Source: Paraliobacillus zengyii
Lineage (GTDB): Bacteria; Bacillota; Bacilli; Bacillales; Amphibacillaceae
Reading direction: 5' to 3'
Length of the DNA stretch: 64,000 bases
Assembly (NCBI RefSeq): GCF_003268595.1
Contig: NZ_CP029797.1
Coordinates: 1,323,501-1,387,500 of the forward strand
Position numbers and translations under genes: made by a program
The notes under the pieces: generated by a model
Database searches by the model: none
What the model saw: the letters and a program-made list of their open reading frames with translations, nothing else
Told to the model about the DNA's origin: nothing
Part shown: in pieces, positions 34,326 through 57,777 of the stretch
How positions within the stretch are numbered: position 1 is the first letter of the stretch
Layout of the letters: each line of letters starts with the position of its first letter

Positions 34326-35288
34326 CTAAATAATTGCTTGGTTGTGAGTAAGTATATCTTTCTCTCTATGATTTTGATCCTTATTGTAAGTAGTTTGAAA
34401 TTTTTCTGCTTTTAATACTGTTACAAAAGCATTTACTACAATTGGATCAAACTGTGTTTCTTTATTTTTAGTAAGTTCCTTTAAAACTTCTTCCCAATCA
34501 GCTTGTCTTCTATAGACTCTTTTTGAAGTCATCGCATCGAATGAATCAGCTACAGCCATTATCCTTGCTTCCAGTGGGATGTTATTTCCCTTTAATCCAT
34601 GTGGATATCCTTTACCATCATAGCGTTCGTGATGATGTAAGATCATGTTTAGAATACCGCTAGATTCAAATCTATTAATATGTTTAACAAGGTTAAAGCC
34701 AATAAGCGGGTGTTGTTTTATCTGATTATATTCTTGCTCAGTTAATTTAGCTGGTTTATTTAATGTGTGTTCTGAAACTCCAATTTTCCCGATATCATGG
34801 AGTAGACCTCCGAAGTAAATATTGTCACAGGCACTATTACTAAGGTTCATTTCTTTTGCGATTTTTCTGGAATAAGTGGCGACATTATGTGAATGCAATG
34901 CCGTATATTCATCTCTTGAATCTAAAGATTTAGCTAAGCTATTAATCAAATCTATTGTATTCCTTTTTTCATTAAGATACTTTTCGATTAAGGTCATTAT
35001 CAAAGCAGATACTACGAAAGATGAGAACCAATGAAACAAAAACATATGTGGGTTCCATTCTGAAACGGTAAAATTACTTATGTACGAGATAAGGCCACTT
35101 GAAATTACTTGGATCCAAATTTTACGAAAAGACAAAGCGGAAAGAACAAGTATTGATAAATTTATTGCAAAAATAACATCTCTCTGTGTAATAAACTGAT
35201 CTGTAAAATAGTAAAATGGTAACGCGATGATAATTAGCCATCTATAGACTAACGTATTCTCTAAAAAAAATGATGATTTCGATTTCAA
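34326..35288 (-). CDS. Membrane HD-GYP domain protein, likely c-di-GMP phosphodiesterase
   Basis: 320 residues. Four or five membrane helices (about 13-115) are followed by an HD-GYP domain: [14 protein letters not shown] gives the HD metal ligands, [12 protein letters not shown] the GYP motif, and [15 protein letters not shown] the third metal motif. HD-GYP enzymes hydrolyse c-di-GMP. It is a natural counterpart of the GGDEF protein at 44387. It is encoded upstream of the chemoreceptor gene in the same direction and may share its transcript. Confidence 0.87.
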
Positions 35289-35585
35289 TCTGTTGCAACT
35301 CCTCTATATTGTTTTTACTCTCTGTAGATAACTTATTGAATGAAACTTAAAATAACCTTTAAAAAATAGTTCTTTCTGCACGTGTTAATATATCTATTAG
35401 CTAAAATGAGCAGAAACAAGTCCCATAATTCATTGAGATTAAAGGTTTTTTAACGAAAAATATAGTGCGATAATATTATATTTTAAAACAATAAAATGCA
35501 TTTTATGATTTAAATGAATTAGGTTTGGAGAAAAAATATTTTAAATGAACATGTTATTTCCCTTTTAGAAATATTCAGATTTTTA

Positions 35586-35614
35586 TTGATTATCTATTGT
35601 GGGTTTGTTATATT
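35586..35614 (+). promoter_or_regulatory. Promoter of the riboswitch-serA transcript
   Basis: TTGATT (35586-35591), 17-bp spacer, TATATT (35609-35614). It would give a leader of about 430 nt carrying both riboswitches. Bases 35289-35585 are AT-rich with nothing recognised. Confidence 0.55.
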
Positions 35615-35641
35615 ATCCTTGTACCTAACAAAGTAATAATC

Positions 35642-35839
35642 CTCGTATATTCTCGGTAATATGGTCTGAGTGTTTCTACCTGGTTCCCAAATTAAAGAAC
35701 TAGACTACGAGTTAAAGTAAGGTTGTTGGTTTTTGTAACTTCCTTTTGATGTTCTGCATGAGTCGATGCTTGGCATTGGATTCTTTAACTTCCGTATGTC
35801 TAGAGGTGGAAAATATTCTGCATATTCTAGGCTTTTTTT
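35642..35839 (+). promoter_or_regulatory. Guanine riboswitch with terminator
   Basis: Aptamer 35642-35711. P1 is CTCGTA/TACGAG, L2 contains AATATGG, J2/3 is TTTCTACC, P3 is CTGGTTC/GAACTAG. The specificity base before TACGAG is C, the guanine/hypoxanthine type, where adenine switches carry U. One J1/2 base differs from the usual form. A terminator follows: stem 35798-35804 with 35826-35832 and T7 (35833-35839). AGTTAAAG after P1 and CTTTAACT (35783-35790) may form the alternative pairing. Guanine binding should favour termination. Confidence 0.85.
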
Positions 35840-35871
35840 ATTGAGATACGAGTAAAAAATAAAAGACAAGT

Positions 35872-35977
35872 CTATGTGTGACTGGCGAAACGCGGATAAC
35901 CGTGAGGGAGCACATAGTGTTTTAGCCGTTCGCCTGGGCAGAGGTAAGGGAATTATTTCTCTTACCTCTTTCTGTTT
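35872..35977 (+). promoter_or_regulatory. ZTP (pfl) riboswitch with terminator
   Basis: P1 is CTATGTG (35872-35878) with CACATAG (35911-35917), enclosing TGACTGGCG and GGATAACC...GGGAGCA. The 3' domain CCGTTCGCCTGGGCA is the ZTP-riboswitch signature. A 12-bp terminator (35940-35951 with 35958-35969, then TTCTGTTTTT) follows at once. In known cases ZTP/ZMP binding prevents termination, so genes for purine and one-carbon supply are switched on. Confidence 0.85.
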
Positions 35978-36054
35978 TTAAAAAAGGGGGATAGTTGGCT
36001 ATTACGCATTACGTCTTGTTGAAATGGAAGATAAGATCATGAGGAGGAATAAAT

Positions 36055-37251
36055 ATGAACACAATTACATTAGAAAAAATGAATACAATAAAAACATTAA
36101 ATCCTATATCTGAAAATGGGCTCAAAGTATTTAGAGATAATTATAAATTAGATGATGAAAATGACAATCCTGATGCGATCGTCGTTCGTAGTTTTAACAT
36201 GCATGATGGAACGTTTGGTGATAACTTAAAGGCGATTGCTCGAGCAGGTGCGGGTGTTAATAATATCCCAGTCGACAGTTTTACAAATAAGGGTGTTGTT
36301 GTATTTAATACACCTGGTGCTAATGCGAATGCTGTAAAAGAACTTGTATTGACTACCTTAATGGCTTCATCTCGTAATCTTTTTGCTGGAATTGATTGGA
36401 CCCGAACATTAGATGGAAAAGGTGAAGACATTCCGAAGCTTGTTGAAGCAGGGAAAAAACAGTTTGTTGGTGAAGAAATTAAAGGGAAAACACTAGGTGT
36501 GATTGGTCTGGGAGCAGTTGGTGCACTTGTCGCAAATGATGCACTTCAATTAGATATGGATGTTATTGGTTTTGATCCATTTATTTCTGTTGATACAGCA
36601 TGGAATTTATCACGGAATGTAAAACGGGCAATGACGATTGAAGAATTGTTTGCTAGTTGCGATTTTATTACGGTCCACGTTCCATTCACTGACGGAACGG
36701 GTGGTATGTTTAATGAAGACACATTTAAATTAATGAAATCAGGTGTCCAAATTCTTAACTTTTCACGCGGTGAGCTTGTTAATGAAAAAGATATGGCAGT
36801 TGCTCTTGAAAGTGGTAGAGTAGGTAAATACATTTCCGATTTCCCAAATGAAAATATACTTAAGATGAAGAATGTTGTTCCAATTCCACATCTTGGTGCA
36901 TCTACGAAAGAGTCAGAGGAAAATTGTGCAATTATGGCTGCACGTCAGATAAAAGATTTTCTCGAAACAGGGAATATTAAAAACTCTGTTAATTTTCCGA
37001 AAACATACCTTCCTTACACAGGGAGAAAGCGAATAACAGTATTTCACAAAAACGTTCCAAATATGGTTGGACAAATTACTTCCGTACTATCTACCTTCCA
37101 TTTAAATATTGCTGATATGGTTAATAGAAGCCGAGGAGAGTATGCATATACAATGGTTGATATTGAGGACAATGTGGATGGTGATATTATTCCAAGCTTA
37201 ACAGAAAAAATCAATCAAATTATGGGTATTGTTACGACTCGTATTATTTGA
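36055..37251 (+). CDS. serA: D-3-phosphoglycerate dehydrogenase (short SerA with ACT domain)
   Basis: 398 residues. It oxidises 3-phosphoglycerate to phosphohydroxypyruvate, the first step of serine synthesis. GLGAVG (151-156) is the NAD-binding loop, Arg238 (FSRGELVN) and His279 (IPHLGAST) are the catalytic residues with Glu266 between, and residues 325-398 form an ACT domain. A GAGGAGG ribosome site precedes the ATG. The tandem guanine and ZTP riboswitches tie it to purine and folate status: serine feeds glycine and one-carbon units for purine synthesis. serC and serB are not adjacent. Confidence 0.9.
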   Translation: MNTITLEKMNTIKTLNPISENGLKVFRDNYKLDDENDNPDAIVVRSFNMHDGTFGDNLKAIARAGAGVNNIPVDSFTNKGVVVFNTPGANANAVKELVLTTLMASSRNLFAGIDWTRTLDGKGEDIPKLVEAGKKQFVGEEIKGKTLGVIGLGAVGALVANDALQLDMDVIGFDPFISVDTAWNLSRNVKRAMTIEELFASCDFITVHVPFTDGTGGMFNEDTFKLMKSGVQILNFSRGELVNEKDMAVALESGRVGKYISDFPNENILKMKNVVPIPHLGASTKESEENCAIMAARQIKDFLETGNIKNSVNFPKTYLPYTGRKRITVFHKNVPNMVGQITSVLSTFHLNIADMVNRSRGEYAYTMVDIEDNVDGDIIPSLTEKINQIMGIVTTRII

Positions 37252-37304
37252 GTTTGTTGTTAATACAATATAATTATTTCCCGGGATATAATTGGAAAGA
37301 AATC

Positions 37305-37355
37305 ACTTGCATATCATAATGTCATACATAGACAGTGTTGTTATGCAAGTTTTTT
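37305..37355 (+). terminator. Terminator of serA
   Basis: ACTTGCATA and TATGCAAGT are exact arms with further internal pairing (TGTC/GACA), then T5. Confidence 0.8.
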
Positions 37356-37514
37356 AATGTTTTCTAAATAGAGGGTTTTTACCGTTCTTTTGCCACATTC
37401 TTATAGTAGGATATTTTTATAAACAATGCGTATGGACATAAACAGTACTTTTATTACGTCACTGTTTCTTGTTTCTATCTATTGTTTAATGAAAAGTGAA
37501 TGAGGGTGTGTTTT

Positions 37515-41802: not shown

Positions 41803-43068
<1,266 letters not shown>

Positions 43069-57328: not shown

Positions 57329-57385
57329 GTAATTATGTAATAATCGCTATAAAAATTCCAATTGATGCAAAAAAATAGAAAAAAC

Positions 57386-57533
57386 TTGCATTTAAAAAAA
57401 TCCCATGCTATAGTAAAGAAGTTATTTGTGTTTGGTGTGTAAGGAGTAAGTATTTAAACTTTTCGCCTTTGATATCTAATTGAGCATTGATAGTAATAAA
57501 TTGTGGAATATATCCACATAGGAGGAAACAAAC
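57386..57533 (+). promoter_or_regulatory. Promoter and long leader of the cold-shock gene
   Basis: TTGCAT (57386-57391), 17-bp spacer, TGC-TATAGT (57409-57414): an extended -10 promoter. The leader of about 113 nt is long, as in csp genes whose 5' RNA folds differently in the cold. AGGAGG precedes the ATG. Confidence 0.7.
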
Positions 57534-57734
57534 ATGCAAGAAGGTACAGTAAAATGGTTTAACGCAGACAAAGGTTTTGGTTTCATCGAAATTGACGGAG
57601 GAGAAGACGTATTCGTTCATTTCTCAGCTATCCAAGGCGAAGGATTTAAATCACTTGACGAAGGTCAAAAAGTTACATTCGAAACTGAAGAAGGCCAACG
57701 CGGACTTCAAGCTACTAATGTAAACAAAGCGTAA
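57534..57734 (+). CDS. csp: Cold-shock protein (CspA family)
   Basis: 66 residues, a single cold-shock domain. KGFGFIE is RNP1 and VFVHFS RNP2; the start [14 protein letters not shown] is typical of Bacillus CspB/C/D. It binds single-stranded RNA and DNA and keeps mRNA unfolded in the cold. Strong promoter, long leader and strong terminator indicate high expression. Which paralogue cannot be decided. Confidence 0.95.
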
Positions 57735-57747
57735 TAGCTTTATAATG

Positions 57748-57777
57748 AAAGGACTCTATTCTGTAGAGTCCTTTTTT
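57748..57777 (+). terminator. Terminator of the cold-shock gene
   Basis: AAAGGACTCTA and TAGAGTCCTTT (11-bp stem, 5-nt loop), followed by more T. Confidence 0.9.

Follow-up and report, generated by a model that had tools for sequence, protein, structure and literature searches.

ZTP riboswitches were reportedly validated by Kim et al. 2015. Combinations of such a switch with another aptamer are described in the survey of Sherlock et al. 2022 (PMC9481103), which is based on RefSeq 80 and environmental sequences and whose logic-gate table includes ZTP/glycine, guanine/PRPP, and ZTP/THF-I pairs as well as several NOT A AND B gates. The closest published case to the leader presented here is the ZTP/glycine tandem of Bacillus and Oceanobacillus, which, according to the survey, stands before the gene initiating serine synthesis, a function shared with the gene here. 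Both arrangements have a similarly described gene product and a ZTP ON switch as one of two serial switches. However, in the published tandem glycine comes after ZTP and the logic is A AND NOT B, whereas here guanine comes before ZTP and the predicted logic is NOT A AND B. The guanine/PRPP tandem (PMC5912903, as summarized in PMC9481103) also joins a guanine aptamer to a second purine-pathway signal, but its aptamers share one terminator and form an IMPLY gate, whereas in our leader each has its own terminator and the two matches lie 140 nt apart. In the account of the same survey, the ZTP/THF-I tandem combines ZTP with another one-carbon signal as gate, but differs from ours in partner, order, and logic. 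A further known tandem places an OFF switch before an ON switch, with the logic predicted here but other ligands and genes.

ZTP switches before such a gene, the ZTP/glycine tandem, the component parts, and the type of logic are already known. As far as could be checked, what is new is the pairing of guanine with ZTP, the gene that it precedes, and the apparent origin from a cassette. The pair is absent from the logic-gate table of PMC9481103, and no description of it was found in literature searches, a mention in Kim et al. 2015 being possible. An earlier note on this DNA, made from the sequence without database searches, had known of no such pair on serA, and the table and the searches agree with it.

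The serial guanine/ZTP leader and its gene

The window, that is, the whole stretch of DNA that was analyzed, comprises 64,000 nt of the Paraliobacillus zengyii genome (GCF_003268595.1, NZ_CP029797.1, 1,323,501-1,387,500, forward strand; the host genome is denoted G000). The entire window was scanned on both strands with the covariance models of 4227 Rfam families, and three matches exceeded the gathering score, namely RF00167, RF01750, and a distant cspA-type match. The cspA thermoregulator match (57357-57777; 81.9 bits, gathering score 78) may be a cold-shock coding sequence and not an RNA element. A collagen-like protein of 421 aa with GPTGPT repeats is encoded at 41803-43068 on the minus strand. 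The other two Rfam matches stand before one gene, here called serA2, and the features of this locus are:

35541..35582, strand not assigned: degenerate inverted PurBox-like pair (9/13 and 11/13), directly upstream of the promoter; weak in the window, with better pairs in some relatives
35586..35614, +: promoter-like site TTGATT-17-TATATT, ahead of the two switches (scan and by eye)
35623-35727, +: guanine-type purine aptamer, RF00167 (71.3 bits, gathering score 37, E 1.3e-10)
35642-35647 with 35706-35711, +: P1 of the guanine aptamer
35700..35803, +: predicted antiterminator, formed between 35700-35717 (P3/J3-1/P1 3' strand) and 35783-35803
35798..35839, +: intrinsic terminator of the guanine switch, hairpin 35798-35832 plus seven U, -11.1 kcal/mol
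35868-35946, +: ZTP (ZMP) aptamer, RF01750 (58.2 bits, gathering score 39, E 7.4e-07)
35940..35979, +: intrinsic terminator of the ZTP switch, 13-pair hairpin 35940-35969 (pattern scan)
36042..36047, +: Shine-Dalgarno sequence AGGAGG (from the sequence)
36055..37251, +: serA2, short 3-phosphoglycerate dehydrogenase (PGDH) paralogue, 398 aa (ORF and profile matches)
37305..37355, +: likely serA2 3' terminator (acttgcata...tatgcaagtttttt), by eye

The serial guanine/ZTP leader on a second PGDH gene is genuine. The earlier note had read from the letters two different aptamers in series before one gene, each with its own intrinsic terminator, and had proposed a check with the RF00167 and RF01750 models. 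Both models match above their gathering scores, and the hairpins at 35798-35832 (with its U run) and 35940-35969 provide one terminator per aptamer. The specificity position, which discriminates guanine from adenine, is C as the note had stated (35705, in the J3/1 motif GAC). Moreover, the three-way junction and the equivalents of U22, U51, and C74, core positions that are also named so in PMC9295807, are intact. With 140 nt and no listed ORF of at least 80 aa between the matches, the leader agrees with the spacing that PMC9481103 gives for tandem gates (at most 300 nt between the aptamers and no ORF). The window ZTP site is the sole ZTP match in the host genome.

The serA2 product matches PF02826 and PF00389 (PGDH-type 2-hydroxyacid dehydrogenase), but reaches only 249.5 bits against the TIGR01327 cut-off of 454. 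The gene had been called serA in the earlier note, a name that is right as to the type of enzyme but not as to canonical SerA, for which this paralogue is too low in score. The full-length SerA of the host genome is encoded elsewhere (G000:C1:3711074-3712648, L214; TIGR01327 690.5 bits, above the cut-off) behind a T-box leader (RF00230, 120.3 bits). The window gene thus represents the second, short PGDH of the genome and presumably encodes an active enzyme. As full-length SerA lies behind a T-box elsewhere, the gate would govern this second branch and not all serine synthesis, which narrows the note's proposal that serine synthesis as such is switched. In four inspected relatives (L160, L166, L169, and L172), a SerC-like ORF (by eye; shortened in L172) separates the ZTP switch from serA2, which supports a role of serA2 in serine synthesis. 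The six other purine-type sites of the host genome precede genes for xpt, purE, guaA, an adenine deaminase, a pbuG-type permease, and an MFS protein (genes assigned by eye), so that serA2 would join the purine regulon. The aptamer before the MFS protein gene carries U at the specificity position.

Predicted promoter and expression platforms

The promoter scan listed five plus-strand sites at or before 35614, the last being 35586-35614, and no plus-strand site between 35614 and 36806. Because its 16 sites overall barely exceed shuffled sequence (mean 10.7, sd 2.9), the choice of 35586-35614 rests on recurrence in relatives, as a similar site was recognized by eye in the other four leaders that carry the tandem. 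Transcripts initiated no later than 35614 would traverse both terminators. Within 35280-37500, the terminator pattern scan found four terminator-like sites, compared with 1.1 in shuffled sequence, an additional weak hairpin at 35763-35779 being listed among its results. It missed the guanine terminator, which was revealed by folding, and as it accepts loops of 3-8 only, the hairpin at 37305..37355 is not in its list. The likely terminator past serA2 suggests a single-gene unit.

In the minimum-energy fold of the free window RNA, 35700-35717 pairs with 35783-35803, the last six bases of which also begin the 5' arm of the terminator; the antiterminator is present and the terminator is absent. 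When P1 and P3 of the aptamer are enforced, the terminator arm is released and the terminator forms, at a cost of 7.0 kcal/mol. The direction assigned in the earlier note, termination in the presence of guanine, is consistent with these folds, in which the terminator is in competition with a pairing that engages the 3' strand of the aptamer, and the platform is predicted to have the layout typical of a guanine OFF switch. Enforcing the aptamer gives the terminator in all five tandem leaders, at costs of 7.0 (G000), 0.1 (G011), 4.1 (G125), 1.0 (G015), and 2.6 kcal/mol (G016), and a hairpin with a U-rich tail follows the guanine aptamer in each of them. The free fold contains the antiterminator instead of the terminator in two of the five (G000 and G011). 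In the minimum-energy free folds of G125, G015, and G016, the terminator coexists with a shorter antiterminator, and exclusivity in these leaders thus requires the longer pairing that opens P3. Judged by minimum-energy folds, exclusivity of aptamer and platform holds in the window and G011 and fails in the other three.

The pairs of P1, P2, and P3 are standard across the five leaders save two cells in G016. P2 pairs change among the leaders, for example between G-U, G-C, and A-U (n = 5, no statistical test). Most leaders have standard pairs in place of the window's outer eight terminator pairs, including a change from A-U to G-C in G125, the exceptions being one G-G (G125) and one A-C (G016). 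The inner pairs are mostly unmappable, because the inner stem differs from leader to leader. In all five leaders, J1/2 reads UAU and not the common UAA, and L3 is enlarged; UAU is also present in the guaA aptamer of the host genome (L004). The motif TACGAG of the P1 3' strand is repeated at 35847-35852, directly past the guanine terminator, where it could pair with the P1 5' strand. It could be a further partner in the switch, but its position is 3' of the terminator.

The first two bases of the ZTP terminator are also the final two of P3 as modelled by Rfam, and the hairpin adjoins the rest of P3. No separate antiterminator was seen for this switch, and the fold of the stretch contains P3 and the hairpin together, pseudoknots being outside the folding model. 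As only two bases are shared and the fold holds both structures, the ON direction is taken from knowledge of the family. In the F. ulcerans switch, as reported in PMC7484762, the terminator forms without ZMP and is blocked by ZMP binding, and the survey in PMC9481103 predicts ON for ZTP switches before a gene of serA2-like function. Read-through on ZTP/ZMP, as proposed in the earlier note, would fit this family behavior, but the local fold does not display that direction. A hairpin below -10 kcal/mol follows the ZTP aptamer in all 76 named relatives scanned. Over these 76 loci, the 5' arm of the terminator (window 35940-35952) is near-invariant and the 3' arm is variable, hinting at a second role for the 5' strand.

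Recurrence among relatives and likely source of the guanine half

A survey of serA leaders, suggested in the earlier note, was run on 80 named loci, the host family, and an order sample, and it found ZTP to be common and the guanine partner to be rare. The named loci are the best 80 of 161 named serA2 relatives and were scanned with all Rfam families at the gathering score. ZTP lies upstream of serA2 in 76 of these 80. The remaining four are L081, which is cut by a contig end, and L094, L099, and L113, the ZTP-less serA2 loci of B. wudalianchiensis, B. badius, and B. aerolatus. A glycine riboswitch occurs besides ZTP at three of the 80 loci (L052, L062, and L102), so that the published ZTP/glycine arrangement recurs here, and a purine riboswitch was found at none of the 80 at the gathering score. 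A ZTP switch before serA2 is ordinary; the guanine switch is the rarity.

In the host family, a ZTP site was found in 53 of 159 genomes and serA2 (E <= 1e-60) in 32 of 159, all within the 53. The 66 listed family ZTP sites, i.e., the window and 65 loci scored with the purine covariance model R1, include five with an intact purine aptamer upstream (G000, G011, G015, G016, and G125), which belong to five genera. Each of the five purine aptamers exceeds the gathering score, those of the four relatives scoring 67.7-75.3 bits with R1, and serA2 lies downstream in every case. The counts use R1; a purine pattern search missed one of seven known sites (L005). A ZTP pattern search recognizes 65 of the 87 order loci placed by Rfam, and a lack of ZTP by that pattern is weak evidence. 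In G010, a relic that scores 22.3 bits with R1 (L162; L019 1195-1264) precedes the ZTP aptamer by about 240-300 nt. It lacks the 5' half of the guanine aptamer and retains the 3' half and the antiterminator strands before ZTP and serA2. BLAST aligns it to the window leader with E 3.1e-6, and it is absent from the Rfam matches at E <= 0.5. ZTP sites were found in 147 of the 397 genomes of the order sample. Outside the family, none of the 87 order sites examined among the matches listed has a purine aptamer near ZTP (flank about 1-1.5 kb, less in L316). The other genome of the host's genus (n = 1) has neither a ZTP site nor serA2. The guanine part, which is missing or decayed in close relatives, is thus not strongly kept. 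In G013, a SAM riboswitch lies downstream of serA2 (L158 1214-1322, minus strand).

A tree of SerA2 proteins comprised 41 rows (29 family and 12 named), excluding L181 with its internal stop, two family genomes without the locus, and the other 68 named loci. On this tree, the relic and the five intact bearers need at least three changes, a number as low in 2 of 500 shuffles, which indicates that they are clustered. The tree does not show a single origin of the tandem, the six bearers forming one group in 0% of bootstrap trees. The window SerA2 groups with the protein of L039, a named locus with ZTP only (support 95/77), and stands away from the remaining five bearers. The history of the tandem may comprise a single origin with losses, two gains, or transfer.

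With the guanine leader (35621-35850) as query, BLAST gave matches in 153 of the 397 order genomes. At the best 29 loci besides the window's own (L185-L213), a gene for a lipoprotein-like member of the phosphorylase superfamily follows in 29 of 29. The one such nucleosidase-like protein tested matches PF01048, passes TIGR01704 (MTA/SAH nucleosidase) with 74.9 bits against a cut-off of 73.8, and lies below the other cut-offs. Many Bacillales have a conserved guanine riboswitch before a lipoprotein nucleosidase-like gene, and the matches listed in the literature search contain no published guanine riboswitch before a nucleosidase gene.

The window guanine aptamer has a mean identity of 91% to the 29 nucleosidase aptamers, a value biased upward as these are the best BLAST hits to the window leader, versus 66% to the six other purine aptamers of its genome. 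The corresponding values for the five tandem leaders are 80-91% versus 63-66%. Furthermore, promoter stretches (by eye), antiterminator strands, and terminator resemble one another in the tandem and nucleosidase leaders, but the latter are single switches on another gene, with a purine aptamer and no ZTP in six of six loci scanned by Rfam. The difference in identity, about 91% versus 66%, indicates that the guanine aptamer was probably transplanted. Since ZTP-only relatives (e.g., G014 and G017) have a similar promoter immediately before the ZTP switch (by eye), the guanine unit would have been inserted between promoter and ZTP or have arrived with a similar promoter. In sum, the cassette is probably a nucleosidase leader, possibly with its promoter, transplanted onto an older ZTP leader; the opposite transfer, from serA2 to the nucleosidase gene, may also have taken place. 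The possibility that the guanine leader is left over from a deleted intervening nucleosidase gene was rejected, as tblastn found no nucleosidase ORF up to 2.5 kb upstream in the 80 named serA2 loci. It is also opposed by G017, where the nucleosidase gene and serA2 lie on different contigs. At E <= 1e-50, all five tandem genomes, the window's included, lack a nucleosidase, which is uninformative because only 8 of 159 family genomes have one, two of them at 42-44% identity.

PurBox pairs were scored with a 13-letter sequence taken to be the consensus, at a threshold of at least 21 of 26 and with expectations from first-order Markov shuffles. Pairs at this threshold occur in 25 of the 29 nucleosidase leaders (0.33 expected), in 4 of 13 chosen family ZTP-only serA2 leaders (0.05 expected), in 0 of 76 named serA2 loci (0.68 expected), and in 0 of the five tandem leaders, whose best score, 20, is also that of the window. 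An initial listing had left out the family loci L164, L167, L171, L173, and L174 and four named loci. As the tandem leaders have no pair of 21 or more, PurR control of the window is only a possibility. PurBoxes are described in PMC8789054 as 14-bp boxes with a central CGAA and spacers of 16-17 bp. Tentatively, and with more doubt than confidence, we suggest that a PurR-controlled promoter, guanine riboswitch, and terminator moved whole from a nucleosidase gene to a place before an already existing ZTP-serA2 leader. The result would be a gate with three inputs (PurR/PRPP, guanine, ZTP), and the PGDH under its control would be set apart for supplying one-carbon units in connection with purines.

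Proposed mechanism and alternatives

A single transcript from the promoter at 35586 would face two serial decisions. With guanine or a close analogue bound, the aptamer would keep the P3/P1 3' strand, leaving the 5' arm of the first terminator free, and transcription would stop. Without guanine, this strand would pair with the terminator arm, and RNA polymerase would continue. In the absence of ZMP/ZTP, the hairpin adjoining the ZTP P3 would then form and stop transcription, and ZTP binding would permit read-through into serA2 mRNA. Expression of serA2 would thus be limited to low guanine and high ZTP (NOT A AND B). The earlier note's AND-type gate keeps its two serial inputs, but would more exactly be NOT guanine AND ZTP, the ZTP-ON half being adopted from the family. 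Serine from the second PGDH would feed one-carbon units, and also glycine, into de novo purine synthesis, and full-length SerA behind its T-box would provide serine for protein synthesis. The guanine cassette would have joined the old ZTP leader through a transplanted lipoprotein nucleosidase leader. The observed aptamers, terminators, recurrence, and cassette similarity fit such a transplanted, serial guanine-OFF/ZTP-ON gate on serA2, and we consider this explanation probable as a whole, its putative ligands, directions, physiology, and direction of transplant being those of the steps above.

The guanine part could also be an inert passenger, a leaky leader carried in with its promoter, ZTP alone regulating the gene. 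This would suit its presence at only 5 of 66 family ZTP sites, the half-deleted relic (L162/L019) and the absence in close relatives, by which loss is seen to be possible, and the terminator retained in the free fold of three of the five leaders. However, five genera share the binding-core positions, P1-P3, the antiterminator strands, and a strong terminator, and the relic scores 22.3 bits versus 67.7-75.3 for the four intact relatives, which makes a passenger unlikely. Recognition of another purine by the first aptamer, namely 2'-deoxyguanosine, xanthine, or hypoxanthine, is suggested by the UAU J1/2 and the enlarged L3 of all five leaders. We judge it improbable, as the U22, U51, and C74 equivalents are kept and J2/3 has no insertion, unlike the xanthine variants described in PMC9295807, and as UAU is shared with the genome's guaA aptamer (L004). 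More improbable still is an OFF function of the ZTP switch, resulting in NOT guanine AND NOT ZTP. OFF ZTP switches are predicted before moeA according to PMC9481103, and the local fold does not enforce exclusivity; but the terminator adjoins P3 with a slight overlap and no antiterminator of its own was observed, the same survey predicts ON before a gene of the same function, and a gene supplying one-carbon units should be induced by ZTP.

The serial guanine-OFF/ZTP-ON leader would be a further member of the small set of natural riboswitch gates with two inputs, and its two separable terminators render it easily tested. If the transplant reading is true, logic gates grow by transplantation of cassettes, with the likely source and the decay both visible. 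The series of ZTP-only, guanine plus ZTP, and decayed guanine plus ZTP leaders, together with a likely donor, makes the origin of tandem gates testable. For the organism, the gate would link serine supply to purine status through RNA alone, and the possession of two PGDHs, one behind a T-box and the other behind guanine/ZTP, suggests a rationale for it.
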